Assembly: GCF_918731615.1 (NCBI RefSeq)
Contig: NZ_OU957226.1
Span: 1,240,001 to 1,304,000 of the forward strand
Origin: Flavobacterium sp. CECT 9288
Lineage (GTDB): Bacteria; Bacteroidota; Bacteroidia; Flavobacteriales; Flavobacteriaceae
Direction: 5' to 3'
Length of the DNA stretch: 64,000 nucleotides
Below the pieces are notes generated by a model. The model was not told where the DNA came from. It made no database searches and saw only the letters and a program-made list of their open reading frames with translations. Both the position numbers and the translations under genes were made by a program. Positions 1 through 14,071 of this stretch are shown here, in pieces (the first letter of the stretch is position 1; the number at the start of each line of letters is the position of its first letter).

Positions 1-116
1 AAAGACATATTGTTTTTTTCTGCAAATACTTCAACTAATCTATTGAAAAGAATAACCTTTTCAATAAAGATTTTTTTAGTATTTACATCTTTTATTTCTG
101 AAACTCTATTAAACAT
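1..116 (-). CDS. Partial CDS at window edge, probable restriction endonuclease
   Basis: An open frame starts with ATG at 116 and runs leftwards off the window without a stop, giving 38 codons beginning MFNRVSEIKDVNTKK. Its first 8 bp overlap the last bases of the cytosine methyltransferase gene, the translational coupling expected of a co-transcribed downstream gene. No domain can be recognised from 38 residues. In controller-methyltransferase operons the gene after the methylase is commonly the cognate endonuclease, so that is the inferred role. It could equally be another accessory protein. Confidence 0.55.
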   Translation of the reverse strand, partial: MFNRVSEIKDVNTKKIFIEKVILFNRLVEVFAEKNNMS

Positions 117-1320
117 TTTCTAACTTCTCAAGTGTTTTTTTTATACTTTTTGCAATAGCCTCAGCCATTAATGGAGGTACAGCATTTCCTATTTGCTTAT
201 ACTGTTGTGTTCGTGATCCTTCAAAAACAAAATTATCTGGGAAAGATTGTAATCTAGCAGCTTCTCTAGGTGTTATAGTCCTTTCTTGTTTATGATCAGG
301 ATGTATAAACTGATTTCCATCTTTATATAAATGGGCAATAATAGTTTTAGACGGAAGGTCCCACCATTGAACTACATAACTATTATTGAAAACTCTTTGT
401 TTTATATGATTCAGATCTGGCTTTTTTTCCAATAGGTCTGTAAAAGTCCATTTATTTTTGCTCATTGTTTTATACCGAAGCCTATCTTGTTCATTATGTG
501 TTCTTGCAATATGATCTCTAAGTAATGTATCATTTTCATTTCTGATTTTTAATAGAAAATCATTTTGTACTTTTACATTATGCTTAGTTATAATTTTACC
601 TTCACCTGGTTTAATAGCTGGCAAATCAGAAATTGCATCTTTAACAGTTACATATTTCTTTAAATTGTTTTTTGAATTTAATTCGTTCTCCGGACTATAG
701 TGAGTCTTAATTATACCATCATAAATTTCAGACGGTTTTATCGACAAATCCTTTCTAGTCCCAATTAAAATAACTCTTTTTCTAATTTGTGGAACACCAT
801 AATCACAAGAATTAAGAACCATATTTTCAGGTTCTTTTATTAAATTATATTTTTGTCCAAGTTCTTTTAGAATTTTCTTTAGAATTGGTTTCCCTTTTAT
901 TTTTGCACTTAACAGCCCTGTAACATTTTCAAAAACAAAAACTTTAGGTTCAAAATGATTTAATATCTTGACATAGCTTTCAAATAAAAAATTACGTGGA
1001 TCATCAGCCATTCCTTTATCATCTTTAGCTCTACCGAGAGTTGAAAAACTTTGACAAGGTGGTCCACCAATAATTATGTCTACTTTTTTATCTTTTATTT
1101 CGTTTTTAATTTGCTCAATAATATTATCATTTGTTATGTCTGTTTCCAGGACAGATGCTTCTTCATCAGAATAACCATAATGTAGCATTCTTGTTTTTAA
1201 AGTTCTACAAGCATATGAGTCATATTCTACGTGGGTTAAACTTTTAAAATCTTGTTTATAGAACCCTTCGCTAAGACCACCACAACCTGCAAATAGATCT
1301 ATAAAAGTAAAATTACTCAT
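109..1320 (-). CDS. DNA (cytosine-5) methyltransferase
   Basis: Transfers a methyl group from SAM to cytosine C5 within a specific DNA site. All main motifs are present in order: motif I FAGCGG (10-15), motif IV GGPPCQS with catalytic Cys89, motif VI ENV (131-133), motif VIII QIRKR (178-182), motif IX RTITPREAARLQ (347-358) and motif X QIGNAVPP (376-383). At 403 residues it is a normal size for a type II enzyme. The target recognition region (about 190-345) does not reveal the target sequence. The start overlaps the stop of the XRE gene by 4 bp (ATGA) and the end overlaps a partial ORF, so it is the middle gene of a restriction-modification-type operon within the mobile element. Confidence 0.95.
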   Translation of the reverse strand: MSNFTFIDLFAGCGGLSEGFYKQDFKSLTHVEYDSYACRTLKTRMLHYGYSDEEASVLETDITNDNIIEQIKNEIKDKKVDIIIGGPPCQSFSTLGRAKDDKGMADDPRNFLFESYVKILNHFEPKVFVFENVTGLLSAKIKGKPILKKILKELGQKYNLIKEPENMVLNSCDYGVPQIRKRVILIGTRKDLSIKPSEIYDGIIKTHYSPENELNSKNNLKKYVTVKDAISDLPAIKPGEGKIITKHNVKVQNDFLLKIRNENDTLLRDHIARTHNEQDRLRYKTMSKNKWTFTDLLEKKPDLNHIKQRVFNNSYVVQWWDLPSKTIIAHLYKDGNQFIHPDHKQERTITPREAARLQSFPDNFVFEGSRTQQYKQIGNAVPPLMAEAIAKSIKKTLEKLENV

Positions 1321-1592
1321 ATATTTTTTGAATTATTTTTAAAATCATTAATTGAAACTTCAAATCCCAAAAACCAAGAAAACTTAGATAGGTAATCTAT
1401 ACTACAATTGAATTTTCCGCTTTCAATTTTAGAAATAGTTGTTCTACTTACTTTCATAATTTCGGCTAATTGTTCTTGGTTATAGCCTTTTTTTTCGCGG
1501 ATTTCACGAATGGATTCCCCCATCTTTATGCGACAGTCGTGGAGGTAACCTTCCATTGAATTCTCTTTTATTTGAGCGTCACTGTCTGTCAT
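1317..1592 (-). CDS. XRE-family HTH regulator, probable R-M controller protein
   Basis: A 91-residue protein with a single Cro/C1-type helix-turn-helix at about residues 28-78 (IREIREKKGYNQEQLAEIM, then VSRTTISKIESGKF). Small XRE proteins directly upstream of a methyltransferase usually act as controller (C) proteins that time methylase and endonuclease expression. The 4-bp overlap with the methyltransferase start supports that role here. The 20-residue extension before the HTH is slightly longer than in classical C proteins. No clear C-box could be located by eye. Confidence 0.85.
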   Translation of the reverse strand: MTDSDAQIKENSMEGYLHDCRIKMGESIREIREKKGYNQEQLAEIMKVSRTTISKIESGKFNCSIDYLSKFSWFLGFEVSINDFKNNSKNI

Positions 1593-1595
1593 TTT

Positions 1596-1838
1596 TTAAG
1601 CTTCTGTTATTTGTCTGGTAATAATTTCAATTGCTTCCTCTTTGCTTACCGTATTGCCAAATTCTTGTAATGATTCATCGTCTCTGTAAACTCCATTACG
1701 ATCATTCCAAGAAAGCCATTCTATTAAATCTAACCTAGACCAAGAATTTAATTCCGTTTCCAAAGCTTCTCCTCTCAATTCCATTAATTTATAGTATGGA
1801 TGTTTTAGTTTTTCTTCTTCGCTTATGTATATGCTCAT
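1596..1838 (-). CDS. Small acidic protein of unknown function, first gene of the R-M cluster
   Basis: An 80-residue acidic protein (begins MSIYISEEEKLKHPYYKL, ends EEAIEIITRQITEA) that I do not recognise. It has no signal peptide or membrane segment and looks helical. Its stop is 3 bp before the start of the XRE controller, so the two are almost certainly co-transcribed. It may be a general cargo gene of flavobacterial islands rather than a part of the restriction system. Confidence 0.75.
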   Translation of the reverse strand: MSIYISEEEKLKHPYYKLMELRGEALETELNSWSRLDLIEWLSWNDRNGVYRDDESLQEFGNTVSKEEAIEIITRQITEA

Positions 1839-1874
1839 GATACTATCTTTTTAATTTTGCTCTCTTATTATTCT

Positions 1875-2279
1875 TTACTCTGGATTGACAAACAAGGTTC
1901 CTAAATGCTCAACCCCTTCATTATCAACCACCGTAAGCCAAACATTAGTTTCAACCCCATGAACTCCGTTAGAAAGATTTACTTCAATTTTTTGTTCACT
2001 TACTTTTATAACTCTTCCTTCCACTTGAGAATAGTCGGATTTGTTAATGGTTACTTTATGACCAATTAAATCATTCGTATCGACTTCTACTACTTCTAAA
2101 TCACCTAAACGAACTGTATTGATTGGCGGAAAAGATAATCCTGTATTCAAAGCTTGAATATCTGCTCTAGGCCTTTCATCATCTGCAATTACCTCCAAAA
2201 CAACATATAACTGATTTGGGTTTTCTTCTGGTAGCGGCGTATGAAATTTTACGATTTGTCCTTTTTTAATTGGTTTCAT
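1875..2279 (-). CDS. Hypothetical beta-rich protein of the mobile element
   Basis: The frame is open from 2375, but the ATG at 2279 (MKPIKKGQIVKFHTPLPEEN) is the likely start. The upstream residues form an implausible Cys/Tyr-rich stretch that overlaps a candidate promoter at 2320-2352. The 134-residue product is rich in beta-strand-like segments (QIVKFHTP, LYVVLEVIADD, KVTINKSDYSQVEGRVIKVS), suggesting a small barrel or SH3-like fold. The function is unknown. It sits 36 bp upstream of the R-M cluster and may be the first gene of that transcript. Confidence 0.75.
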   Translation of the reverse strand: MKPIKKGQIVKFHTPLPEENPNQLYVVLEVIADDERPRADIQALNTGLSFPPINTVRLGDLEVVEVDTNDLIGHKVTINKSDYSQVEGRVIKVSEQKIEVNLSNGVHGVETNVWLTVVDNEGVEHLGTLFVNPE

Positions 2280-2319
2280 AATTAATCCCTTTATGTAGAT
2301 TATTTCGTATTGTATTGAA

Positions 2320-2352
2320 CAAAAATAGTAAACCGAGCACAATAAAGTGCAA
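2320..2352 (-). promoter_or_regulatory. Candidate promoter for the accessory/R-M operon
   Basis: On the minus strand TATTTTTG (2320-2327) fits the Bacteroidota -7 consensus TAnnTTTG. A TTG lies 22 bp upstream (2350-2352). Between them is the small palindrome GCAC-AATAAA-GTGC (2337-2350), which could be an operator. The call rests only on consensus match and position about 40 bp before the ATG at 2279. Confidence 0.4.
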
Positions 2353-2379
2353 TATACTGAACATTTTATTAACAATTTT

Positions 2380-2577
2380 ATACAATTTCAATTAAAAAGT
2401 AATTAGGGTAAGATTGGTACCTAATTTTAAAGTAAAATTTCTTTTTTGGTTTTTATAAAAACAAGGCTAGATAGCTCTGGTAGTGCAAACTATAATAGAT
2501 TTATTGGACTATATAAATGTAGATTTATATATTTCTATTTCAAAATTGATAAAGTTTCAAGGACTAATTAGATGTAT
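2380..2577. other. AT-rich intergenic segment
   Basis: This gap between the accessory operon and the gene ending at 2578 is very AT-rich, with runs such as TATATAAATG and TTTATATATTTC. I see no ORF, tRNA or stable hairpin in it. It probably holds the upstream part of the operon promoter and the 3' end of the preceding transcript. Confidence 0.5.
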
Positions 2578-3165
2578 TTAATCGCAATATCTCTCTAACA
2601 TTTCCTCTATTTCAAGAATTGAAGATTCATTAACCAATGAAAAATCAAACTCACAAGCAAATCCGATAAGTAATTTTTGTAATTCTTTACGCAGTTCTTC
2701 CCTTAGTTCTGAGGATTCTGGATTGTACAGTTTGTATGCTAATTCCCTACCAAATTTATAATTAAGGCGCTCAATGTAATCATCTGAATCTTCTAAATCA
2801 ACTTTAAAGTTATCGTAATATTCCATGTATTTTTCGTTCAATAACCAGAAATAGAGTGAAGTCAGTTCCTCTTTAGTACAAGCATTTAAAAAATTGATAA
2901 TTAAAAGCATCAGATCATGCTGCTGCTCGTAATCGGGTAAGTCTCCTAAATAAAAATTTACAGCTAAAATTAAGTCTGAAACATTTTTTTTCTCGTCGTA
3001 AATAGTAAAACTAAATTGAATTAATAGTTTTCGGAGTACTGTATTTTTTGCATAATTAACTACTATGTTGTTTACTTCTTTTGTAATATATAGTTTGTCG
3101 TCAATTGTAATCATAGCATTTAAATTATAAGAGTTATTAAGATTAAATGTGAGAAAAAAATCCAA
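2578..3165 (-). CDS. Hypothetical acidic helical protein
   Basis: The predicted protein has 195 residues. An alternative start at 3114 (MITIDDKLYITKEVNNIV) would give 178 residues and is equally plausible. It is acidic and helix-rich with no signal peptide or membrane segment. The C-terminal half contains charged repeats (SSELREELRKELQKLL) and ends EEMLERYCD. I do not recognise a family. It lies among cargo genes of the element, about 90 bp downstream of the zinc-ribbon gene, and may share its transcript. Confidence 0.7.
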   Translation of the reverse strand: MDFFLTFNLNNSYNLNAMITIDDKLYITKEVNNIVVNYAKNTVLRKLLIQFSFTIYDEKKNVSDLILAVNFYLGDLPDYEQQHDLMLLIINFLNACTKEELTSLYFWLLNEKYMEYYDNFKVDLEDSDDYIERLNYKFGRELAYKLYNPESSELREELRKELQKLLIGFACEFDFSLVNESSILEIEEMLERYCD

Positions 3166-3256
3166 AAAATTTTAAGGAAATATAGTTTTGTAGAAATATA
3201 GTTTTCTATAATTCTATTTTGAATTATCAATTAGCATTCGGAGTTCCTGTACTTTA

Positions 3257-4240
3257 TTAATCTGCGCCTAAACTATTTAAATAATCGATCATAACTTGTC
3301 TGATAGATTTTGGTTGGCTGCTGATCCTTTTTGTTTGAGGAGCTTTTTCCAAATTTTCTAATGGTGTCATTGTTAAATAGAGATTTTCGTTTGCTCGATT
3401 CCATAAACCAAATATGTACTCCACTCCAGGTTCAATTACGATACGTTCTTTGAAGGTAACTGTTCCTGCGTGCAAAGGACTATCTGGATGGTATTGATTT
3501 TCATTTATAGTCAGTTTAAATTTTAATTCATTAGTATCAACATCAGTTTGAACATAACTGGGACTAATTTTTTTTGGTGGTTTGATTTCATCAATAAATT
3601 CAGTTAGCCTTTGTAAATATTGATAGGAAGCTATATAATTATCACTTCTATTTCTGACAAGATGTATTAGGTCTTGATCACTAATTTTTTCTAAAGCTTT
3701 GATCAATTTTATAAAATTCTCCCTACCAAGTTGTCCACCATATTTTTTTTTAAGTTGATCAAATGGCATTTCAAGGCAACTGCTCAATACTTCCCTTTCA
3801 AATTGGTTTAGGTTGTTCCAATTTTTCTTTTTTAGCGCTTGATCAAATTTTTGAAGAAATAATTGGTGAGCTTCTTTTTTTGCTTTCTTATCTTTCTCAT
3901 CCTGAATTTCTTTGCAATTTGAACATTTAAACGTCCTATAGTAACTTCTTTGTGATTTTTTTATTTCATTATATCTAGAATTGCTATAGATTTTTTGAAT
4001 TTCATAAGACGTACAATATTCACAAAACAGATAGCAGGATAACTCACTATGAGTCTTTATAATTTTACTTAACTCATATGATGATCGCAAACTGAAAGCA
4101 GTTAATACTTGTTTTGGAGAGTTTACAATTTCATTTTCCTTGAACTCCCAATAAAATTTTATAATTTCTTTTTCTCTTTCTGAGCATTTATCAGAAATGA
4201 ACACCTGTAGATTGGCGATTTTCGTGTTTTGATCTTCCAT
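3257..4240 (-). CDS. Unknown protein with a CxxC...CxxC zinc-ribbon-like segment
   Basis: A 327-residue protein with two CxxC pairs about 35 residues apart (CEYC and CSNC, within roughly 73-112), which would fit a zinc ribbon. Residues 105-150 are strongly charged and probably coiled coil (KEIQDEKDKKAKKEAHQLF). The C-terminal third looks beta-rich (FKERIVIEPGVEYIFGLWNR). No enzymatic motif was identified. The zinc ribbon suggests nucleic-acid binding, but that is inference. It follows a structured palindromic element and is a cargo gene of the mobile element. Confidence 0.75.
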   Translation of the reverse strand: MEDQNTKIANLQVFISDKCSEREKEIIKFYWEFKENEIVNSPKQVLTAFSLRSSYELSKIIKTHSELSCYLFCEYCTSYEIQKIYSNSRYNEIKKSQRSYYRTFKCSNCKEIQDEKDKKAKKEAHQLFLQKFDQALKKKNWNNLNQFEREVLSSCLEMPFDQLKKKYGGQLGRENFIKLIKALEKISDQDLIHLVRNRSDNYIASYQYLQRLTEFIDEIKPPKKISPSYVQTDVDTNELKFKLTINENQYHPDSPLHAGTVTFKERIVIEPGVEYIFGLWNRANENLYLTMTPLENLEKAPQTKRISSQPKSIRQVMIDYLNSLGAD

Positions 4241-4275
4241 TTCGTGTTATTAAAAAAGCGTGGAACTGTTACTTA

Positions 4276-4394
4276 TTAGCACTATAGGTATCGCCAAACA
4301 CCCGCACACCAAATAAGAACAGCCCACGCTAGGCATGGGCGTCTTAGTTTTGATATTAGCGTGCTATTATAATTTGGCGATTTTATAGTACTAA
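4276..4394. repeat. Nested palindromic element, possible structured RNA or dispersed repeat
   Basis: Three nested inverted repeats share one centre. The outer arms are 4276-4286 and 4384-4394 (TTAGCACTATA / TATAGTACTAA, one mismatch). The middle arms are ATCGCCAAA (4290-4298) and TTTGGCGAT (4373-4381). The inner hairpin is GCCCACGC (4322-4329) with GCATGGGC (4333-4340), fully paired on the minus strand if one G-T wobble is allowed. Alternative pairing is possible between AGCGTGG (4257-4263) and CCACGCT (4324-4330). It is more GC-rich than its surroundings and fills most of the gap between 4240 and 4525. It could be a dispersed repeat, a partition site for the adjacent ParA module, or an RNA leader for the gene at 3257-4240. 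Confidence 0.6.
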
Positions 4395-4524
4395 TTCAAA
4401 AGCTAAACACTTTGAGTTATTTTATTTTAAGTAATTATCTATATAGAATAGGCATTGTTTTTTGTTAAAAGTTTCAAATTAAATCCTTGGATTTAATAAT
4501 GTAAAATAAGCTATTTTTTTCTAC

Positions 4525-4749
4525 TTAATCAAGTGAATTCCTTAATGCATTATTCACGATTTCTTTCATACTGATTTCATTTTGAAAAGCTTTTAATTTT
4601 AATTTTTTGTAGAGCTCTTTCTCTATGTAAAATGAAAATTGTACTTCCTCAATTTCCTTATTGGAAACAGGTACAATTTTTTGAATTTTGTTTTGTTGAT
4701 TGTTAGACTTGACCTTATTTATCAAGTCATTCATGCTTTCTGATTCCAT
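4525..4749 (-). CDS. Small ribbon-helix-helix-like protein, probable ParA partner
   Basis: A 74-residue protein whose C-terminal half fits a ribbon-helix-helix fold: strand VQFSFYIEKELYKKL, then helices LKAFQNEISMKEIVNNALRNSL. The N-terminal half is polar and probably unstructured. It follows parA by 42 bp on the same strand. Short RHH proteins after ParA commonly act as centromere-binding or regulatory partners, so that role is inferred. The AT-rich gap before it repeats AGATTTATA and could hold an operator. Confidence 0.75.
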   Translation of the reverse strand: MESESMNDLINKVKSNNQQNKIQKIVPVSNKEIEEVQFSFYIEKELYKKLKLKAFQNEISMKEIVNNALRNSLD

Positions 4750-4791
4750 AACTGTAGATTTATATGTTTATAGATTTATAGCTAACTATAT

Positions 4792-5382
4792 TTATAGTAA
4801 CAACATTAACACTTCTTTGGTTAGCTGGTCTAACTGACGTTGAGCGTTTCTATCGTTTACAACCCCTTGTAAAACAACAGATCTCGTGAAAGCAACTAAG
4901 TCGCTAATGTGCGTTTTCGCAATGGGGACTTTATATTCCTCCAAACCTATTAATATATCTAGTGTTAAAGTCGTATTGGGTTTAATCATGTTGAATACAA
5001 CAATAGTAGAATCAGTTTTATGTTCGTGTTCAATAAGTTTCAAAGTGCTTTTAATAGCTAACAAATCCAGAATTCCGGCTTTAGTTGGAACAAGTATCAA
5101 ATCTGCTATATTGATCAATTTTGGTAAATCATTGGATAGGTAAGGAGGAGTGTCGATAAAAACAAAATCATACTCTAGGTTTAAAATAGTATTTATATCC
5201 TCGACAAATGGAATGATATCGAAACTAGTAATGATCTCTTTCAATTGGCTCAAACTTCCTTGTGAGTCGAAATCGAGTACCGCAACTTTTGAGCTTTTAG
5301 CTATATTCTGAGCGAGATTAAAGGTAAGTGTGCTTTTGCCAACTCCGCCTTTTTGATGGGTTATTAAAATTATTTTTGGCAT
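4792..5382 (-). CDS. parA: ParA/Soj-like partition ATPase
   Basis: A short (196 aa) ParA-family ATPase without an N-terminal HTH. It has the deviant Walker A KGGVGKST (11-18), the A' segment LDFDSQGSLS (about 37-46) and a Walker B-like FVFIDTPPYL (about 74-83). Such proteins move DNA cargo over the nucleoid and stabilise plasmids or excised elements. It starts 17 bp after the relaxase gene ends, so it belongs to the mobilisation operon and probably helps retain the element in its excised circular form. The symbol reflects family membership only. Confidence 0.9.
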   Translation of the reverse strand: MPKIILITHQKGGVGKSTLTFNLAQNIAKSSKVAVLDFDSQGSLSQLKEIITSFDIIPFVEDINTILNLEYDFVFIDTPPYLSNDLPKLINIADLILVPTKAGILDLLAIKSTLKLIEHEHKTDSTIVVFNMIKPNTTLTLDILIGLEEYKVPIAKTHISDLVAFTRSVVLQGVVNDRNAQRQLDQLTKEVLMLLL

Positions 5383-5399
5383 GGGTTTTAAATATTTGA

Positions 5400-6470
5400 T
5401 TATGTTTTTCTGTTTGTGCTGATACTCTTTCTCTTCTTCTTTTTATCAGCGTCAGCAATTGCGTAATTTTCAAACTCAGAAGCGCTTTCTTGAGTCACTA
5501 TTTCATCATTTGGGAAATCATTTAATGTTTGAGTTGTTTTCCCCTTTAAGGCCGCAGAATCTTGGACCACTTTTATGGTATTCCATTGTTGATGCTTATC
5601 AACCGCTGCTGCGAAGTTTGTTTGATTTGAATTAAGTACTTTATTTAAATCATATTTCTCTTGAGGGCTCCCATTTTTTAGGATATTTTGGTTTTTAAAT
5701 TTTTCAAGCTCTTGGCGCTGGTATTTAAAATGTTCATCAAATGTTTTTTCATTCATATCAATCCACTTTACTCGATCAAATCCCACTTGATATTCATTGT
5801 CGCCAATAGTTCTATTAGTTAGTTTTTCATTGCAAGTAGGGCTTAATTTCAATTTTTGTGTCTTATCTTTCCTTGATACAATAACGTGTATATGGGATTG
5901 AAGACCTTTTTTAAATGTGCCAGACTTTACACTCTTATCAGCTACTTCCTTATCAGTCCCTTTAAATTTTCTAAAATGCTCAATCTTCCCAAAATAAACC
6001 AAATCAGCCCCGCTTTGAACTCCTTTATCTTGTCGGTTAAAGTTTAAGGCGTAATTGTCCATTACTTTTCTACCATAATCTCTAATGAGTCTGTTATACT
6101 CATCTAATTCCATCAAAGATAGATCCCAAACACTTTTTACATTATTTTTTCCAGATGCTAAAAAAGCAATGTGTTGGAGTTCATTCGTACTAAAAGAAAT
6201 GGTAGGTGCAAAATATTTAGCGTCATTGGCTCCCAGTTTTTTTTTATTTGAATCAATATGACTAATTACTTCAATTGTGCTAATGTTTGTCTTTAATGCA
6301 TCAAAGAATCCTTGTTTTCGGCTCTCCAACTGTAAAGCTTCATCGCTAGAAGTAGACTTTCTTATACTCATATCTAAGTATTGATTTTCTTTTTCTAAAT
6401 ACAAAGCCAGATTTGAACAACTACCTTTATTGTCTGCTCCAAGTGAACTGTGCGGTTTAGAAATCGGCAT
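5400..6470 (-). CDS. Relaxase/mobilisation protein (Bacteroidota MobB-like, DUF5712-type)
   Basis: Predicted DNA-nicking protein of 356 residues that would process oriT during conjugative mobilisation. The motif QSHIHVIVSRKD (191-202) is the two-histidine metal-binding segment seen in this relaxase group. Tyr-rich segments in the N-terminal half (for example VMDNYALNF, 137-145) could supply the nucleophile. The C-terminal 70 residues are polar and end in a lysine-rich tail. The start overlaps the stop of the BfmA/BtgA-like gene by one base (TAATG). The family name comes from memory of similar Bacteroidota proteins. Confidence 0.82.
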   Translation of the reverse strand: MPISKPHSSLGADNKGSCSNLALYLEKENQYLDMSIRKSTSSDEALQLESRKQGFFDALKTNISTIEVISHIDSNKKKLGANDAKYFAPTISFSTNELQHIAFLASGKNNVKSVWDLSLMELDEYNRLIRDYGRKVMDNYALNFNRQDKGVQSGADLVYFGKIEHFRKFKGTDKEVADKSVKSGTFKKGLQSHIHVIVSRKDKTQKLKLSPTCNEKLTNRTIGDNEYQVGFDRVKWIDMNEKTFDEHFKYQRQELEKFKNQNILKNGSPQEKYDLNKVLNSNQTNFAAAVDKHQQWNTIKVVQDSAALKGKTTQTLNDFPNDEIVTQESASEFENYAIADADKKKKRKSISTNRKT

Positions 6471-6988
6471 TATGAAAACAGAGTTTTAATTTTGTCAATT
6501 GCTCCAGATTTATTTTTGTCATCTAATAATAGGCAAAGAATTACTAAAGCTTTTTGGGTTTTTTCTAATTCAGCATTGACAAGTTTGGTTCTTTCCCTAT
6601 CAGTATTGTTTATTTTATTCAAGAAGTCCAAATATTTTTTTTCAGTAGTACCAATGTTATCTGATTGCTTATTTATTTGTCTTTCAATTAGATCCTTCAA
6701 TTTATCAATTTCTATTTTTTGTGAATTTTGATAATTAAAAACATCTTGCCTTAACGGTTTCAAAATGTCCCGTTCCTGGACTTTCATAAACGAAACAATT
6801 CTTTTATCCAAAGCAGAAACCATTGCCGAAGGATCTTTGTTCACAGCATCTTTTGGATTAATGCCTGTTTTTTTAAAATAGTAGATCATTTCTTCAACTA
6901 AAGTGCCGTAATTTAGCCCTAAGCTTTCAGATAACTTTGCAAGCTCCTTATGTGGTTTTTCCTGAATCAAAATACTTTTTTTGTTCAT
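6470..6988 (-). CDS. BfmA/BtgA-family mobilisation accessory protein
   Basis: A 172-residue protein with an N-terminal segment (KPHKELAKLSESLGLNYGTL, 12-31) resembling the DNA-binding part of BfmA/BtgA mobilisation proteins of Bacteroides elements. A long helical, probably coiled-coil, region follows at 80-150. Such proteins bind oriT and help the relaxase. It is the first gene of the mob operon, and the hairpin-rich segment directly upstream (7012-7147) is the natural place for oriT. Confidence 0.82.
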   Translation of the reverse strand: MNKKSILIQEKPHKELAKLSESLGLNYGTLVEEMIYYFKKTGINPKDAVNKDPSAMVSALDKRIVSFMKVQERDILKPLRQDVFNYQNSQKIEIDKLKDLIERQINKQSDNIGTTEKKYLDFLNKINNTDRERTKLVNAELEKTQKALVILCLLLDDKNKSGAIDKIKTLFS

Positions 6989-7079
6989 AATTATATTTTT
7001 TATAATTGTAAATCAGTTACTTAAGTTCTTGTTTATATTTTCGTTATAAAAGAGTATAAATTTATTTTGTTCAAATTGC

Positions 7080-7147
7080 CTTGTTTACAGGGCTTGGCCT
7101 CGCAGAGCTAGTAAAATAGGGGCCTTTCTGCCCCTGTGCGACTAGCT
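7080..7147. other. Candidate oriT with a nested perfect hairpin
   Basis: Two perfect inverted repeats share a centre. The outer arms are AGCTAGT (7106-7112) and ACTAGCT (7141-7147). The inner arms are AGGGGC (7118-7123) and GCCCCT (7130-7135). They are separated by symmetrical 5-nt bulges (AAAAT and GTGCG), with a 6-nt loop. A GC-rich stretch GGGCTTGGCCTCGCAGAG adjoins it at 7090-7107. It lies between the mob operon and the primase-like gene, whose stop codon is inside the right arm. There is no T-run on either side, which argues against an ordinary terminator. Confidence 0.55.
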
Positions 7148-8198
7148 ACTCTTTTAGAGACAATGAGATTCTATTTCCATGGAGATCAGTAAGATCAAAT
7201 AGATCTATTAGAATTTTTAAATTCTTATTTTTTAGGTACAATTTATTAATCAATTTTTGCTGGTTTGAGAGTATGATTTTTGGTTCTTGATTTATGTTTT
7301 GTAAAAAATAATCAGCAATATCATAACCTTTTTCTCTTTGATGGGTAGTTCCATTCTTTTCTAATAAATCTGAAATTTGAATGTCAAATCCTTTACTTTT
7401 GAAATGCTCACACTTAGATTTCCAAATTGTAAAAGGACTTCCATTTAATCCATAATTACCTAAATCTGGATACAGAATTATTCTTCGATTTCGCAAAACT
7501 TCCATTTTAAAGTCATTTAAACCATTTAAACTTCCGGCAGCTATCCACTTATATTTTTTGAATAGTATGCTCATTATACATGCTGTTTTTTCAGATTCAA
7601 CGATGGCGACAGTAGTGTCGCAATTATTAATCAAGTGCTCTCCAAAAAAACATTGACTTAAGTTGAAGTTTTTTAGTTCTTGTGATTTTATTTTTATCGA
7701 ATGAATCCAGTTGATGTAGTTAGTTCTTTTGCCAGAAGTATTGTAAATAATAACTTTTCCACCTCTAACATTATATTTTGAATCAACTTGCCAAAAAATG
7801 GTACCAAAATTCCAGAAATTGGCAGTTCCAATTTTATAGTCAAAAGTCATTTTTTCTACCTCTTGACTATCAAATTTTGATTTTAAAAATTCGATAAAAT
7901 TGTTTTCGTTGTAATGCATTAATGTGTTTGTTAAATCAGTTTTATCATGAATCGAAATATCAACTTTTTGATCAAAAGATGGACAAAATTTAATATTCTG
8001 AACATATGGCTGATTGTTATCATTAAAATAAGATCTAGGGGAGTAGTGGTAACCACAATTTATTTCCCTATCACATCTACCAACAAGAGGCGAAACGTAT
8101 TCTTTAGTTTCTAAATCGATATAAAGCACCAACCTTTTTTTATTGCAATTAGGACATTGATGTTTAGTTGATTTTTTCTGCAATGAGTATTTATACAT
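7146..8198 (-). CDS. Zinc-ribbon/Toprim primase-like protein (DUF6371-type)
   Basis: A 350-residue protein with an N-terminal zinc ribbon (Cys15, Cys18, Cys42, Cys48, His51; CPNC then RCDREINCGYH), as in bacterial primases. A degenerate Toprim domain follows at about 195-260, with VESEK (200-204), AAGSLNGL and YPDLG (243-247), where the usual DxD is replaced by PDLG. It probably acts in replication of the excised element together with the DUF3987 ATPase encoded upstream. Whether it can make primers is unclear because there is no obvious complete catalytic core. The DUF label is from memory. Confidence 0.8.
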   Translation of the reverse strand: MYKYSLQKKSTKHQCPNCNKKRLVLYIDLETKEYVSPLVGRCDREINCGYHYSPRSYFNDNNQPYVQNIKFCPSFDQKVDISIHDKTDLTNTLMHYNENNFIEFLKSKFDSQEVEKMTFDYKIGTANFWNFGTIFWQVDSKYNVRGGKVIIYNTSGKRTNYINWIHSIKIKSQELKNFNLSQCFFGEHLINNCDTTVAIVESEKTACIMSILFKKYKWIAAGSLNGLNDFKMEVLRNRRIILYPDLGNYGLNGSPFTIWKSKCEHFKSKGFDIQISDLLEKNGTTHQREKGYDIADYFLQNINQEPKIILSNQQKLINKLYLKNKNLKILIDLFDLTDLHGNRISLSLKE

Positions 8199-8218
8199 AA
8201 TTTATAGTATTGCATTTT

Positions 8219-8421
8219 CTTCACTTTCTTCACTTTTCAGTAATAGTAAGGTTTTACAAGGTTTTATGACTTCATTTTGGCTTCATTTTGACTTCACTTT
8301 ACATTTTTTTGATAAAATGTTAAATTGCACTTTCTTCACTAATATTGCACAAATACATAATTTTAAAACAATGAAAATCAAATAGTTAATACGCAAAGTG
8401 AAGAAAGTGAAGAAAGTGAAG
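8219..8421. repeat. Iteron-like repeat array, candidate replication origin
   Basis: The gap between the primase-like and helicase-like genes carries the 9-bp unit CTTCACTTT repeatedly. There are two tandem perfect copies at 8219-8236. Three copies with an 11-bp period follow at 8270-8302 (two CTTCATTTT variants, then a perfect copy), with a partial copy at 8334-8340. Three perfect tandem copies in inverse orientation (AAAGTGAAG) lie at 8395-8421. A different 9-bp repeat, AAGGTTTTA, occurs at 8248-8256 and 8258-8266. The middle (8303-8394) is AT-rich. Inverted iteron blocks around an AT-rich core, flanked by replication genes, suggest an origin. Confidence 0.6.
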
Positions 8422-8422
8422 T

Positions 8423-9853
8423 CTATACTATTTTTTCATAACTTCCATGTGCAAGCCTTTTGAATAATTTGACGTCTTTTAGATAGGTTTTAAATTGTCT
8501 ATCAGACACTCTAGCTTTTCCTTCAATTAGCTTACAAGCTATTTTTAACCCTTCTGCTGTTGTAAAAGTTTTAGGGAGTTCATTTAGAATATTTTTTTGA
8601 AGTTCTGTGAGAGTTTCGAAATAATTCTTTTTAAGAATCTCTGTTCGTACTTGAATAGCATTATTGTAGAAATAGTCAAATAATTGAATAGCTCCTTTGA
8701 TAGAAGATATATCTACTTGGTTTTTTGATTCGCTTTCTACAGTTGAATAAATAAGTTGAAGAATTAATGCAAATCGAAGTACATATTGTTGCAGTTTTAT
8801 TTCGACGCTTCGTTCATAATCAAAGAAAAACTTATCAGGTCTGTTATTTTGCCATCTGAATAAGTATTCTTTGGCTTCAGTTTCCATCGTAAAAACAGTA
8901 GATATCGTATGATCAGTATCACCCAAATCAATTAGATTATTAATGAGTGTGGTATAATTATTGAATAGTACTTTATTTACTTGTTGGATATTCCAACGCA
9001 ATATTTTCTCATCGTTTGGATAAACAAACAGTAGTCTGTCCATAAAACCATTTGTTGATCCTCCATCCTTTCCAAAATCCTTTAAAACCGAAATTTGAGT
9101 GCTACCAATAACGCTTACGCAAGGATCTTCGAGCCTAAGAGATTTTCCTGAAGCTCTATCTGTTGTAATTTGTGTTCCACTCCATAAACTTAAATATGTT
9201 TCGGCCTCACCTGAACTATTGTAACGGTTAAAATTCTTCAACCATCCATTGAGCTCGTCGACATATATGCAAATTCCTCTCTTGTTGTTACTGTGATTTA
9301 AAACGAGGGCTTCGGGTGTAAAATCGCTAAGTAAATATCTTTTAAAGATTGGTTTTTTTTCTTTGTTTTTATTTTCTGAATTTTCTGAATTTGTTCTTTC
9401 ATATTCAGCTAATTGACTTTCATAATCAGCATATAGTTGGCTCTCTCTATTCTGTATTGGATTAAAGCAAAATTTTAAAGCTTGTGTTTTTGCATCGCCG
9501 GGTTGTCCAACAATTACCATAAATAAGTTTACTTTTTCCTCCCATCCATGTTTTACTTCTAGTTTATGTGATTTACCTATAGAAGCCGAAGCAGCTGAAA
9601 GAATTCCTGCACCAAGATAATCTATCGGAAATAAATGCTTATCATGAATCTCTATAATAATCTCTTGAATGGCTTTTGGATAAATTTCTATTGGAAATAA
9701 GTTTCCTTTATTATCTTTATGTTTCAAATAATCATTTTCCAAATCCACCAGGTCAATTCGTCCTTCTATTTGATTATCTTTGTGTTGCGATTCAAAGATT
9801 TTACCCTTTTTACTCTCAGGAGTAAAAGGGGTATTATTTTTTAAGTTGACCAT
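8423..9853 (-). CDS. DUF3987-family helicase/primase-like ATPase
   Basis: A 476-residue protein with a P-loop variant GQPGDAKT (116-123) and a Walker B-like ICIYVDELNGW (194-204), followed by a helical C-terminal half. DUF3987 proteins are found in plasmids, phages and integrative elements and are thought to act as replicative helicase-like ATPases. It starts 2 bp after the HTH gene ends, so the two are co-transcribed. It ends beside the iteron array. The linker at 155-168 is low-complexity (NSENSENKNKEKK). Confidence 0.85.
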   Translation of the reverse strand: MVNLKNNTPFTPESKKGKIFESQHKDNQIEGRIDLVDLENDYLKHKDNKGNLFPIEIYPKAIQEIIIEIHDKHLFPIDYLGAGILSAASASIGKSHKLEVKHGWEEKVNLFMVIVGQPGDAKTQALKFCFNPIQNRESQLYADYESQLAEYERTNSENSENKNKEKKPIFKRYLLSDFTPEALVLNHSNNKRGICIYVDELNGWLKNFNRYNSSGEAETYLSLWSGTQITTDRASGKSLRLEDPCVSVIGSTQISVLKDFGKDGGSTNGFMDRLLFVYPNDEKILRWNIQQVNKVLFNNYTTLINNLIDLGDTDHTISTVFTMETEAKEYLFRWQNNRPDKFFFDYERSVEIKLQQYVLRFALILQLIYSTVESESKNQVDISSIKGAIQLFDYFYNNAIQVRTEILKKNYFETLTELQKNILNELPKTFTTAEGLKIACKLIEGKARVSDRQFKTYLKDVKLFKRLAHGSYEKIV

Positions 9854-9855
9854 TT

Positions 9856-10140
9856 TTATACCTTTTTATTGGTATAAATAACTGCTTCTTGTTTAAGTTG
9901 AGAAACAGATTTTGATTTGTTTTGTAACAGCCATTCGTCAATCTCAGTTTTAGTAAAGAAGAGGGTTCTGTTATTGGGTTTCGAGTAGGGGAGTATATTA
10001 GTATGTACTAGTTTATATACATAACTTTTTGAGAACCCCGTGTAGTTTACAACATCGTCAACAGTGAAGATTTGTTTGTTTGTCCCAATGATTAATTTCT
10101 CTAATTGGGTTAATTTCTGAATAATTGCATTGCTTTCCAT
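9856..10140 (-). CDS. Excisionase/AlpA-like HTH protein
   Basis: A 94-residue protein with a MerR-like winged helix-turn-helix of the HTH_17 type at about residues 24-75 (FTVDDVVNYTGFSKSYVYKL, then LFFTKTEIDEWL). Proteins of this type in integrative elements act as excisionases or as regulators of the replication/excision genes. It lies directly before the DUF3987 gene with a 2-bp gap. Three GTTAAY repeats just upstream (10197-10219) may be its binding sites. Confidence 0.85.
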   Translation of the reverse strand: MESNAIIQKLTQLEKLIIGTNKQIFTVDDVVNYTGFSKSYVYKLVHTNILPYSKPNNRTLFFTKTEIDEWLLQNKSKSVSQLKQEAVIYTNKKV

Positions 10141-10196
10141 AAGTGATATGTTTTATCGTTATGGTAGCAAATGTCAATAAAGTAAAATTTGGAAAG

Positions 10197-10219
10197 GTTA
10201 ACTTGTTAATGTAGTTAAC
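10197..10219. promoter_or_regulatory. Candidate operator: three GTTAAY repeats
   Basis: GTTAAC (10197-10202), GTTAAT (10205-10210) and GTTAAC (10214-10219) follow one another with 8- and 9-bp steps, upstream of the HTH gene and downstream of the gene ending at 10230. Each GTTAAC is itself a palindrome. The repeats could bind the adjacent HTH protein. This is inferred from position only. Confidence 0.35.
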
Positions 10220-10229
10220 TATATTTCTA

Positions 10230-11216
10230 TTACTTAAAAATTGATTCTATTAGTTTATAATTTTTGGGTTGCATTCCGCTTTTAGAAACTGAAACATAAA
10301 TTGATTTAGCTTTTATCTTACCATTTTTATTTTCAATTTTCCCCAAAAGCTCAATAGAGGTTAAGTTTATTTTAATATTTAAAAATTTATAAATAGAGTT
10401 AATAAAAAAATTGAATTGGATATTGTCCATATTAAAGTAAACGATTGAGTTATGAGATTCACTATCACTTGTAAAAACTTTTATAAAGTCTTCTTCAGAG
10501 GTTTTTTCTTGGTCAATGAACATGTGTTTTTCCAAACCAAAATATATTTTTTTTAAAATTTTATTGTCAATGTTTAATAAGGATCTTTCATTGGTGAAGT
10601 TTGGTTTTGAAAGGATTTCAATTTTTTCTTCTAGACCATCAATTGTCATAGAAATATGATTTTCAAAATCTTCCAATGCTTTTTTTATTAAAACAAAGAC
10701 ACCCAATCTTTTATCGTTGTAATTATTTTTATTCTCACAAAAATTAGTAAATAAATACTTAGCACTTAAAAGATCATGCCACATATCATTTAAAACTCTA
10801 TCACTCAAAACCGTAAGTTTCCTTATTTTGGATTGTTTTGAGAATTCAGTAGTTTCAAATATATAGTTAATTAAAAGATCTAATTCATATGTACAATTTA
10901 AATATGCTTTTACTTCTCCCATAAATATCTTCTCGAAGTAAGGGTCATCAATAAGTCTAAGTGTGTAATCATGAAATTGATTTTTTGGTTGTACTTCAAA
11001 GTCCAGATAAAAAAAATAATTGAGAGTATCAATAGTAAGGGGATCGTCATTCCTGTATAGTGTGACATCAACAAGAAGGGTTAAAAACTGAAATTCATTA
11101 AATTTATTTATTTTCCTTTTGATGGATAAGTTTTCCTTAGGATCTTTACAATTATTTTTTAAGTATTTAGCAAATTGATCGTGATTTTTTGAATATTTGA
11201 AATATGAATATATCAT
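10230..11216 (-). CDS. Unknown protein coupled to the integrase gene
   Basis: A 328-residue, lysine- and phenylalanine-rich, mostly helical protein with no signal peptide, membrane segment or metal motif. The C-terminal 60 residues (from INLTSIELLGKIENK to YKLIESIF) contain a possible HTH-like helical pair. Its start is 4 bp after the integrase stop, so the two are translated from one transcript. Position and size recall RteC-like regulators of Bacteroides conjugative transposons, but I could not see the conserved RteC sequence and do not claim it. A role in excision control is possible. Confidence 0.7.
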   Translation of the reverse strand: MIYSYFKYSKNHDQFAKYLKNNCKDPKENLSIKRKINKFNEFQFLTLLVDVTLYRNDDPLTIDTLNYFFYLDFEVQPKNQFHDYTLRLIDDPYFEKIFMGEVKAYLNCTYELDLLINYIFETTEFSKQSKIRKLTVLSDRVLNDMWHDLLSAKYLFTNFCENKNNYNDKRLGVFVLIKKALEDFENHISMTIDGLEEKIEILSKPNFTNERSLLNIDNKILKKIYFGLEKHMFIDQEKTSEEDFIKVFTSDSESHNSIVYFNMDNIQFNFFINSIYKFLNIKINLTSIELLGKIENKNGKIKAKSIYVSVSKSGMQPKNYKLIESIFK

Positions 11217-11220
11217 AATA

Positions 11221-12351
11221 TTAAAGTTTAATATTTGGTATTAAATTAGCAGCTTCCTTCATTTTTTGATCAACAATTTTTGCATAAATTGCGGTTGTGC
11301 GAATTTCTCTGTGTCCAAGTCTTTTAGATACAGTGTAAATGTCTGCCCCATTTTCAAGTAAAAGAACAGCATTCGTGTGCCTGGCGCTGTGAAACGTTAT
11401 ATGTTTTGATATTCCTGCTCGATTACACCAACGTACTATTTCATTATTGTATACAGCACTGTATTTTAGGCCTTTAAAAACTCTTTCTGATGGGTCTTGT
11501 CGTTCTCCAAACAACTCTCTGATTTGATTTGAAATATACAGATATTCAACTCCTTCAGTTTTTTGCTGACGAAAATTTATTCTACTAACTCCATTGTCTT
11601 CATCCCTTACTTCTGACCAAACTAAAGTATTTATGTCGCTCCACCTAAGACCTGACAATGCAGATGCAATAAAGGCTCGTTTTAAAATTTCATATTTGCA
11701 AGGAGTATTAGCTAGTGATTGTAGCTCTTGATGCGTTAGATATTCTCTTTGACTTTCAGCTTGTTCAAATGATTTTGTTTTCGAAGCATAATTTATTGAT
11801 AAATAGCCATCATCAAATGCAGCTCTTAGACAAGCTTTGAACTTGTTATAATAAGAATATTTTGAATTAAGTGACAGAGGTGTATCACTTTTTGTTTTAG
11901 CTTCTTTGTCAAAGTACAAACGCACTCGCTTGACAAAGTTCTCATCAACTTCATCAAATGTAAGATTTGATGAAATACATCTTTTTAGATGTAGAGAAGT
12001 TGCCGTCCAGTTCCCGTAGTTTTTAGGAGAGTCAATTTTTTCCTCCGTTTTCTCTATAAAGTAATCTAAAAACAATCTTTTTGACTTAGAAGTGTTTTTG
12101 ATGTCAAATTTACCTTGAAAGTATTCTGCTTTACGGATAGATAATATTTGTTCACTTAAAGTGTCAATTTCTTTATTCTCTTTCTTTTCGGTGGCAGTTT
12201 TGGGTTCTTGATGTGGATACAACTTTAAGTACTCAAAATCTCTTAAGTGAATCCTTTTACCATCCATGTTTATAGTAGAGCCTTTGTAGTACTCTAGGTA
12301 TAAACTGAACTTGCCATTTTGTAACTTCTTTTTCTTTAAAGTGATATTCAT
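11221..12351 (-). CDS. int: Tyrosine recombinase (integrase) of the mobile element
   Basis: Site-specific recombinase of 376 residues. An N-terminal arm-type DNA-binding domain (about 1-60) is followed by a SAM-like core-binding domain (about 90-190) and the catalytic domain (200-370). All catalytic residues are visible: Arg236 (SGLRWSD), Lys264 (RQQKT), His321 and Arg324 (HSARH), His347 (RLGHRE) and Tyr356 (TAIYAKI). It is transcribed away from mnmE and lies 148 bp from its 3' end, the usual place for an integrase next to its attachment site. Repeats just upstream of its start may be arm-type sites. Confidence 0.95.
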   Translation of the reverse strand: MNITLKKKKLQNGKFSLYLEYYKGSTINMDGKRIHLRDFEYLKLYPHQEPKTATEKKENKEIDTLSEQILSIRKAEYFQGKFDIKNTSKSKRLFLDYFIEKTEEKIDSPKNYGNWTATSLHLKRCISSNLTFDEVDENFVKRVRLYFDKEAKTKSDTPLSLNSKYSYYNKFKACLRAAFDDGYLSINYASKTKSFEQAESQREYLTHQELQSLANTPCKYEILKRAFIASALSGLRWSDINTLVWSEVRDEDNGVSRINFRQQKTEGVEYLYISNQIRELFGERQDPSERVFKGLKYSAVYNNEIVRWCNRAGISKHITFHSARHTNAVLLLENGADIYTVSKRLGHREIRTTAIYAKIVDQKMKEAANLIPNIKL

Positions 12352-12392
12352 AGGTGTACATTTTTACACCTTTTTAGTCCTGAGGTGTACAT
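12352..12392. repeat. AGGTGTACAT repeats upstream of int, candidate arm sites or operator
   Basis: AGGTGTACAT occurs directly repeated at 12352-12361 and 12383-12392. The first copy also forms a perfect 7-bp inverted repeat with TACACCT at 12365-12371 (6-nt loop). The cluster touches the integrase start codon and lies between int and the mnmE junction. It could contain integrase arm-type binding sites and/or the int operator. Confidence 0.45.
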
Positions 12393-12499
12393 CGAGTGTA
12401 ACAAATGTATGAATTAAAGTTATTACAAGAAAGCCATAATACAGTTAAATCAATGGTAGTCAAGTTATAGAAAGTTAAGAATACTTAAAGAAAGTGCTT

Positions 12500-12517
12500 T
12501 TATTTCCCGATACAGAA
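12500..12517 (-). other. Probable attachment core at the mnmE 3' end
   Basis: The last 18 bp of mnmE, including its stop codon, read TTCTGTATCGGGAAATAA on the coding strand. The known attB core of Salmonella genomic island 1, at the 3' end of trmE, is TTCTGTATTGGGAAGTAA, differing at only two positions. The integrase gene lies directly beyond. Integration here would restore an intact mnmE end, consistent with the normal FCIGK terminus. The second copy, expected at the far end of the element, is not present in the window. Confidence 0.55.
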
Positions 12518-13903
12518 ATTCGCAAATATGTTCCCCAGTAATTCATCATTAGTCACCTGACCGGTAATCATCCCGAAATGGTATAATGCTTCGCGGATAT
12601 CAAGCGCCATTAAGTCGCTAGAAAGGTTGGTTTCAAGCGCGTATTTTACTTTGCTAATCTCATCAAGTGCTTTTAATAAGGAATCATAATGACGGGTGTT
12701 GGTCACAATGGTTTCGTTGTTGCGCAACGCACCGGTGTTGACAAAGGAAAGCAATTGGTTTTTGAGCTCGTCAACCCCTTCTTTATTTTTGGCGCTCAAA
12801 AGTAGTATTTCTGGAATTTCTTTCTTGATATGCTCAATCTCATTATCGGAATATAAATCTTTTTTATTTCCGATAATAATCAAGGGCTTCAAGGGAAATT
12901 GGTTCTTAATTTTCTCAAATTCAATCTGAACCTCTTTGATATTTTCAGCATCAAGAGTTCCTCCTTTGGGGGTTAGCGGGCTCAAATACAAAACCACTTG
13001 CGCTTGCTCTATTTTCTCAAAAGTTTTTTGTATGCCAATGCTTTCTACGTAGTCTTTGGTTTCTCGAATACCAGCTGTGTCAATAAATCTAAAACCAATG
13101 CCGCCAATGACTAATTCGTCTTCGATGGTGTCCCGCGTTGTTCCTGCAATGTGAGATACAATGGCGCGTTCTTCGTTGAGTAAAGCATTCAAAAGCGTCG
13201 ATTTTCCTACGTTGGGTTCACCCACAATGGCAACAGGAATTCCGTTTTTAATAACGTTACCCACTGCAAAGGAATCAATCAAACGTTTCAATACAAATTC
13301 AATTCGATTCAATAATTCATGAAACTGGGTTCTGTCAGCAAACTCTACATCTTCCTCGGCAAAGTCTAATTCAAGTTCGATAAGCGAAGCAAAGTTTAAA
13401 AGTTCCTCTCTCAATTTGGCAATTTCGTTCGAGAAACCACCACGCATTTGCTGCATCGCAATTTGATGGCTGGCTTCATTGTCTGACGAAATCAAATCGG
13501 CAACAGCCTCGGCTTGGGATAAATCCAGTTTTCCGTTCAAGAAAGCACGTAGGGTAAACTCACCTGCATCGGCCATTCGGCATCCTTTTCTGAGCAATAA
13601 TTGAATAATTTGTTGCTGAATATACGTTGATCCGTGACAAGAAATTTCTATGGTATTTTCGCCAGTATAGGAATTAGGTCCTTTGAAAACAGAAACTAAT
13701 ACTTCATCGAGCGTTTTGGAACCATCCACAATATGACCTAAATGAAGGGTGTGGGTTTTTTGAGTGACTAAGTTTTTATTTTTTATGGATTTAAAAACAC
13801 TATCAGCAATAGGAATAGCATCTTGACCAGAAATTCGTATTATGGCAATTGCTCCGGCACCAGATGGTGTGGCAAGGGCAACAATGGAGTCTTGAGGAAT
13901 CAT
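12500..13903 (-). CDS. mnmE: tRNA uridine-5-carboxymethylaminomethyl(34) synthesis GTPase MnmE
   Basis: GTPase that works with MnmG to modify the wobble uridine of certain tRNAs. The 467-residue protein has the N-terminal folate-binding domain (about 1-120), a helical domain, and an inserted Ras-like G domain with GEPNVGKS (228-235), GTTRDT (254-259) and DTAG (275-278). The C-terminal FCIGK (463-467) carries the conserved catalytic Cys464. Length and ends are normal, so the neighbouring mobile element has not damaged it. A good promoter lies just upstream. Confidence 0.98.
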   Translation of the reverse strand: MIPQDSIVALATPSGAGAIAIIRISGQDAIPIADSVFKSIKNKNLVTQKTHTLHLGHIVDGSKTLDEVLVSVFKGPNSYTGENTIEISCHGSTYIQQQIIQLLLRKGCRMADAGEFTLRAFLNGKLDLSQAEAVADLISSDNEASHQIAMQQMRGGFSNEIAKLREELLNFASLIELELDFAEEDVEFADRTQFHELLNRIEFVLKRLIDSFAVGNVIKNGIPVAIVGEPNVGKSTLLNALLNEERAIVSHIAGTTRDTIEDELVIGGIGFRFIDTAGIRETKDYVESIGIQKTFEKIEQAQVVLYLSPLTPKGGTLDAENIKEVQIEFEKIKNQFPLKPLIIIGNKKDLYSDNEIEHIKKEIPEILLLSAKNKEGVDELKNQLLSFVNTGALRNNETIVTNTRHYDSLLKALDEISKVKYALETNLSSDLMALDIREALYHFGMITGQVTNDELLGNIFANFCIGK

Positions 13904-13920
13904 TTTGATTTATTTTTATA

Positions 13921-13950
13921 CAAAAGTAACCAAAATTGGTGGGAGCGCAA
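13921..13950 (-). promoter_or_regulatory. mnmE promoter
   Basis: On the minus strand a TTG (13948-13950) is followed after 19 bp by TACTTTTG (13921-13928), a full match to the Bacteroidota TTG / TAnnTTTG promoter form, ending about 17 bp before the mnmE ATG. Confidence 0.6.
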
Positions 13951-14031
13951 GACAACTGCCTTACTGAAAAAAAAATTGAAAATAGTGATGCTAGTATGAC
14001 AAATATCATACTTCTAGCGCAAGTAAGAGTT

Positions 14032-14039
14032 TATCTTTG
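14032..14039 (+). promoter_or_regulatory. -7 promoter box of the universal stress protein gene
   Basis: TATCTTTG matches TAnnTTTG and lies 32 bp before the ATG at 14072. No clear -33 TTG was found at the usual distance. Confidence 0.45.
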
Positions 14040-14071
14040 TTACAACAACTAATCTTTTAACTACACATGCT

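Follow-up and report, generated by a model that had tools for sequence, protein, structure and literature searches.

The window (the whole 64,000-nucleotide stretch of Flavobacterium DNA that was analysed) contains part of a 22.4 kb mobilizable element integrated at the 3′ end of mnmE, and repeats found in a gap between two of its genes raise the question of whether the element carries a replication origin that could be used after excision. In window coordinates, the features of the element that bear on this question are:

12500..12514, attL copy of TTATTTCCCGATACA at the mnmE 3′ end
11221..12351, − strand, tyrosine integrase
9856..10140, − strand, HTH_17/AlpA/excisionase-like small protein, directly upstream of DUF3987
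8423..9853, − strand, DUF3987 protein of 476 aa, predicted MCM-like AAA+ ATPase and proposed initiator helicase
8199..8422, gap of 224 bp from the DUF3987 stop to the DUF6371 start, proposed replication origin (oriV)
7146..8198, − strand, Zn_ribbon_16 + DUF6371 protein of 350 aa, predicted DnaG/T7 gp4-type primase fold
6470..6988, − strand, BfmA/BtgA-family mobilization protein
5400..6470, − strand, MobB-family relaxase (DUF5712)
4792..5382, − strand, ParA-like ATPase, directly behind the relaxase gene

With an integrase, direct repeats at a specific site and a relaxase of its own, this is an integrative mobilizable element. The second 15-bp copy of TTATTTCCCGATACA lies 22,364 bp away, beyond the window (locus L009; coordinates 8136–8150), and the relaxase scored 229.6 bits against the MobB model (cut-off 200). 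No T4SS family was detected among those element proteins that were covered by general family scans. A ParA module had been named in the original prediction as fitting with plasmid replication; the ParA-like gene is present but, as it adjoins the relaxase gene and its product scored 110.7 bits against the NCBI partition-ParA model, below the 180-bit cut-off, a role in partition is neither proved nor excluded. A 74-aa gene beside it was considered as a ribbon-helix-helix partner and rejected (no Pfam match; 19.2 bits against an unrelated NCBIfam model with a cut-off of 100). The cargo of the element (L009 coordinates 8259–14069, equivalent to window −9741 to −3931, and window 109–1320) includes genes for an AbiEii-like nucleotidyltransferase, an HTH/DUF6922 protein, HipA split into two genes (N and C parts), a DUF2357/PDDEXK_7 nuclease and a C5 DNA methyltransferase. 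By eye, L009 16596–18116 resembles a second C5 methyltransferase and L009 14076–15941 an McrB-type ATPase.

The gap was found to contain 134 six-mer pairs, compared with 22.1 in shuffled sequences (p 0.002), and 11 units of CTTCACTTT, variants included, arranged in four blocks as follows:

8395..8421, − strand, iteron block A, 3 x CTTCACTTT with a 9-bp period
8325..8342, + strand, iteron block B, TTGCACTTT CTTCACTAA, two degenerate units
8301..8394, A+T-rich stretch between blocks C and A, with block B inside it, 78.7% A+T
8270..8300, + strand, iteron block C, CTTCATTTT, CTTCATTTT, CTTCACTTT with an 11-bp period
8210..8236, + strand, iteron block D, TTGCATTTT CTTCACTTT CTTCACTTT with a 9-bp period, inverted relative to A

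The three units of block A are on the − strand and those of blocks B (two), C (three) and D (three) on the + strand, hence B, C and D are all inverted relative to A. A single base separates block A from the stop codon of the DUF3987 gene, itself on the − strand, and block D is just upstream of the DUF6371 start. The six perfect copies of CTTCACTTT originally predicted were recovered (8219–8227, 8228–8236 and 8292–8300 on the + strand; 8395–8403, 8404–8412 and 8413–8421 on the − strand), as were the two CTTCATTTT variants with their 11-bp period (8270–8278 and 8281–8289). The further pair of AAGGTTTTA is also where it had been placed (8248–8256 and 8258–8266) but does not belong to the conserved part, as it is not retained as a pair in four close relatives. 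The proposed AT-rich core is only modestly so, with 74.6% A+T across the gap and 78.7% in 8301–8394, compared with 70.0% in window positions 1–12500. Seven copies of CTTCACTTT were found in the 64-kb window where 1.16 were expected, a number reached in none of 100 shuffles, and six of the seven fall inside 203 bp. The 15-mer GTGAAGAAAGTGAAG, which represents two joined units, occurs four times in the 3.7-Mb genome when up to one mismatch is allowed, three of them in the gap. No exact match to the DnaA box TTWTNCACA was found in the 224 bp.

Relatives of the element were sought in one genome from each of 84,980 species using short peptide patterns, which yielded 107 candidate stretches. Four of these are close relatives, all from Flavobacterium, though further relatives may have been missed as only short peptide patterns were used. 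All four have mnmE and the integrase gene side by side and all four retain blocks A to D, so the expectation that the same iterons accompany the same genes was borne out. Across the five elements, pairwise identity was 0.96 for block A, 0.97 for block B (8328–8342), 0.87 for block C (8268–8300) and 0.92 for block D (8213–8238), compared with 0.64 for the spacers and 0.84 and 0.81 for the flanking coding ends; none of 229 circular shifts reached the difference between blocks and spacers. The pattern GTGMAGAAAGTGMAG was found in 18 of 299 Flavobacterium genomes, once in 15 of them and more than once only in three (G000, G653 and G695), and its reversed control also gave matches in a number of Flavobacterium genomes. 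G653 and G695 (L152 and L153) were dropped as duplicates of L008 and L006, and L056 was likewise dropped as a duplicate. A single copy of GTGCAGAAAGTGAAG in 11 of the 299 genomes probably belongs to a conserved part of the chromosome that has nothing to do with the array.

In another genus, behind a DUF3987 protein with 62% identity, the 9/11-bp layout is kept, with CTTCACTTT replaced by CTGCACTTT, in several blocks, and by CTGCATTTT. More distant DUF3987–DUF6371 gaps carry other words, for example GGCACTAAC, GACAATTTC, GTGGCAAAC and GGAAACT, and the search in distant DUF3987/DUF6371 elements revealed word arrays at the same place in most pairs. Repeat richness was scored in gaps of at least 40 bases as the number of six-mer pairs relative to dinucleotide shuffles. 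At p≤0.01, 26 of 38 DUF3987 gaps (41 in all, three being too short; five of the 38 belong to the close family) were repeat-rich, as were 12 of the 17 gaps that separate DUF6371 from upstream helicases of other kinds (31 in all, 14 too short), compared with 29 of 167 control intergenic regions from the same loci. The loci share descent and these counts consequently overstate their independence. Twelve of the 38 DUF3987 gaps miss the threshold. A seven-mer version gave 26 DUF3987 gaps, 13 other-helicase gaps and 34 control intergenic regions at p≤0.01, and a count of the best word was weaker, reaching p≤0.05 in 16 of 23 gaps of the winged-helix type and 3 of 15 of the helix-turn-helix (HTH) type. 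Of 394 genomes sampled from the phylum, 52 carry DUF6371. At ten loci from other families of the phylum (L093, L095, L097, L101–L103, L105, L111, L112 and L122), the DUF6371 gene overlaps or abuts the helicase gene, leaving no gap. When viral contigs were scanned with the DUF3987 protein, none of 14 candidate stretches held a relative. The tandem word pattern, a 22-mer, was found in eight viral stretches in which none of the element's proteins has a relative at E≤1e-3; on reading, these proved to be mainly coding repeats, and the word alone is consequently not diagnostic.

The proteins encoded on either side of the gap were examined through predicted folds, which upheld the labels helicase-like and primase-like given to them in the original prediction. 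The DUF3987 protein is predicted to adopt an MCM-like AAA+ fold, and its C-terminal segment (about residues 417–474) is winged-helix-like in the predicted model, with the order of elements seen in a winged helix. The DUF6371 protein combines a zinc ribbon with a predicted TOPRIM-type catalytic fold; its model is that of a DnaG-type primase in which the TOPRIM motif is altered. The acidic motif of TOPRIM domains is E...DxD. In the DUF6371 alignment, E201 and D245 are invariant but D-L-G replaces DxD in 39 of 39 sequences, and as the second Asp is missing, primase activity is doubtful. The only family matches at E≤0.1 were PF13148 in the DUF3987 protein and PF19898/PF21957 in its neighbour; neither of these two proteins matched a Rep_3-family initiator at that threshold, and the DUF3987 profile had no sequence match at E≤1 among PDB chains. 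Earlier work predicted that DUF3987 acts as a helicase in mobile elements and that the C-terminal winged-helix domains of related primase proteins recognise origins (PMC5862659).

When the C-terminal 75 residues of each of the 38 DUF3987 proteins were clustered blind to the DNA, two groups emerged. Among the 22 members of the winged-helix-like group, which includes the protein in the window, the best repeat period in the gap was 9 bp in 16, tied with 9 in two, 8 in two and 11 in two. Among the 16 of the helix-turn-helix-like group, it was 7 bp in 11, tied with 7 in two and another value in three. Pooled z values for the first group were 29.6 at 9 bp (24.4 without the close relatives) and 13.1 at 11 bp (7.8), with L141 left out, and for the second 18.2 at 7 bp in a subset of 12 hand-picked loci (L058, L116 and L119 left out). 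In 69 control intergenic regions, z was 0.4 at 7 bp, with mild peaks at 9 to 11 bp (3.8, 3.4 and 4.8). The repeat period thus follows the C-terminus of DUF3987, with 9 bp going with a winged-helix-like and 7 bp with a helix-turn-helix-like end, although here too shared descent makes the loci look more independent than they are. Single cases, listed without a test, extend to other helicases: those of the D5 type mostly have a period of 9, and the AAA_25 helicase of L136, with an HTH-like end, has a period of 7.

Plasmids carrying DUF3987 were also examined (13, the 3′ flank being testable in 12). Five of the 12 3′ flanks were repeat-rich at p≤0.01 (those in pOSC7112.05, pGM03, pSR11, Priestia p3 and a Bartonella plasmid), a further four at p≤0.05 and three showed no excess; among the 13 5′ flanks, three reached p≤0.01, pSR11 included. 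The circular plasmid pSR11 of Salinibacter ruber (11,534 bp) encodes an 820-aa fusion of TOPRIM and DUF3987, and opposed repeats of the TTGCACTTG/TTGCACTTC type lie directly 3′ of the fusion gene (p 0.0033). Neither another Rep family nor a relaxase family was detected in the 10 pSR11 proteins scanned, and a DUF6371 gene was not found. The sole Rep candidate of pSR11 (L060; coordinates 9095–11533 and 1–23) spans the point at which the circular record is opened, and as the PLSDB gene table does not list it, the plasmid looks Rep-less there. Plasmid pGM03 has repeats but also encodes a CyRepA1 protein. Bacteroides and Parabacteroides 'plasmids' with the module were considered as autonomous replicons and set aside: pFunn3_1 has a separate replication initiation protein, the module there was read as nested, and these plasmids were not counted as evidence of autonomous replication.

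The gap is probably the oriV of the integrative mobilizable element, with iterons that the C-terminus of DUF3987 would bind, and would be used by the excised element. This reading is well supported by comparison of the sequences. Classical Rep plasmids have iterons of 17–22 bp and a DnaA box. Of the iteron-controlled origin first proposed, the origin was retained and the classical Rep-plasmid type given up, the nearest precedent being that of SaPI and SCCmec.

The repeats could instead form only an operator, through which DUF3987 or the HTH_17 protein controls DUF6371 and the downstream mobilization genes, with no origin involved. The placement of block D just upstream of the DUF6371 start, the 11-bp spacing of block C (one turn, as is typical of operators) and the presence of repeats in 29 of 167 control intergenic regions agree with this. 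However, the period tracks the helicase C-terminus rather than a regulator, block A is directly behind the DUF3987 stop and distant from the DUF6371 start, and in pSR11 the repeats are found behind DUF3987 though primase and helicase are fused and the DUF6371 gene was not found. An operator alone is thus unlikely, though it is possible that the gap serves as origin and operator at once. A role in transfer or excision, as part of oriT or as accessory sites for integrase or excisionase, is very unlikely. The element does encode a relaxase and an excisionase-like protein, and excision of NBU1 requires a large internal region that includes oriT (PMC5704250), but more than 1.2 kb separates the gap from the relaxase genes and about 4 kb separates it from att, the helicase is what word and period track, and arrays are found beside DUF3987 on plasmids.

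Blocks A and D are inverted and 96% complementary over 24 nt, and could pair into a long hairpin, in RNA or as a cruciform, such as an attenuator, for which a both-sided change at one of the five variable pairs, in one sequence, also speaks. However, 22 of the 27 pairs are invariant across the five elements, one of these never pairing, and the five variable pairs show five broken cells against one one-sided and one both-sided change, a pattern that a shared word explains too. As blocks B and C play no part in this structure and no Rfam family reached its gathering score for the gap, the hairpin has only a slim chance of being the explanation. Neutral tandem duplication of simple sequence is hardly credible: slippage repeats of short words are common, and the 22-mer pattern recurs in the eight viral stretches read as mainly coding repeats, but the units in the gap are opposed, dispersed and more conserved than the spacers, and both place and period recur across lineages.

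For the gap as an origin, we infer binding, opening, loading, priming and replication in the following form. After excision, the C-terminal winged helix of DUF3987 would bind the 11 short iterons, giving two opposed assemblies, one on block A facing one direction and one on blocks B to D facing the other. The A+T-rich stretch between the assemblies would be opened by DUF3987, which would load itself as helicase, and the neighbouring DUF6371 primase-like protein may make primers or help, with host polymerases finishing. The excised circle could in this way be kept and copied while awaiting transfer or reintegration.

As in modules of the SaPI/SCC type, the element encodes a predicted AAA+ helicase, and short iterons follow immediately 3′ of the helicase gene. 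SaPI Rep is an initiator helicase that loads itself and uses its C-terminal domain to recognise iterons lying immediately 3′ of the rep gene; the C-terminal domain of SCCmec Cch2 likewise binds direct repeats, with the iteron AAGTG, in a putative origin that closely follows the cch2 gene, and Cch2 needs these repeats (PMC7581432). The element resembles SaPIs in the proposed initiator helicase with short iterons 3′ of its own gene, in the separate primase-like protein and in being integrated in the chromosome; SaPIs replicate once excised (PMC7581432). However, SaPI Rep is not described there as DUF3987, the helicase family here: the SaPIbov1 protein is related to Cch, a DUF927 helicase, and SaPI5 Rep has a Primase_Cterm/D5 domain. 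The SaPI primase is of the AEP type (PMC7581432), whereas a DnaG-type fold is predicted here. SaPIs are also phage satellites, whereas the element here has relaxase genes. The SCCmec iteron AAGTG (PMC7581432) lies within AAAGTGAAG here, a shared 5-mer that may be due to chance, and SCCmec differs in its D5-type helicase, three iterons and CCPol-MP priming. In its logic the module is SaPI/SCC-like, but its helicase and primase belong to other families and it is carried by mobilizable elements of Bacteroidota.

SGI1, another mobilizable integrated element, has an iteron oriV immediately downstream of rep (PMC7433901), but its rep is of the Rep_3 superfamily (PMC5704250). The SGI1 oriV further differs in having four 17-bp GC-rich iterons and a putative DnaA box. 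PICMI of Vibrionaceae are likewise small integrated elements with an integrase, AlpA and a 'primase' recognised by DUF3987 and DUF5906 models, and deletion of prim left fewer circular or concatemeric copies; they differ in being phage satellites, and an iteron is not mentioned in the main text (PMC10803314). The likeness to pSR11 lies in the winged-helix-type DUF3987 C-terminus and opposed short repeats directly 3′ of it, the differences being that TOPRIM and DUF3987 form one protein there, that the record is a free circle and that no relaxase family was found in the 10 proteins scanned.

The literature search found no work joining DUF3987 with an iteron, and a review calls the maintenance of excised mobilizable elements 'an unexplored world' and states that replication after excision was never studied (PMC5704250). 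For such elements the gap and its neighbours offer a concrete candidate origin, initiator and primase-like partner, and recast two families named for their 'unknown function' as a replication module that can be tested. There is about an even chance that this module belongs to a class of mobile-element origins that is both widespread and modular, with helicase gene, origin and primase-like gene following in that order, in which the C-terminal DNA-binding domain of the helicase would set the iteron length (about 9/11 bp for a winged helix, 7 bp for a helix-turn-helix) and the word would drift with the domain. Such a class would extend to free plasmids from other phyla and cover helicases of the D5 and AAA_25 types beside the MCM-like DUF3987. 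The sequence would then reveal the origin-specificity (incompatibility) group of each element, predicting which elements would compete for one initiator.

The DUF3987–DUF6371 module was also identified in three human faecal scaffolds labelled 'Bacteriophage sp.' (L187, L188 and L189; GenBank accession numbers MT837912, MT836643 and MT836828), which were examined after the pattern was set and show, by eye, opposed word blocks behind DUF3987. One of the three has an integrase, and these scaffolds may be satellites or mobilizable elements in viral preparations.
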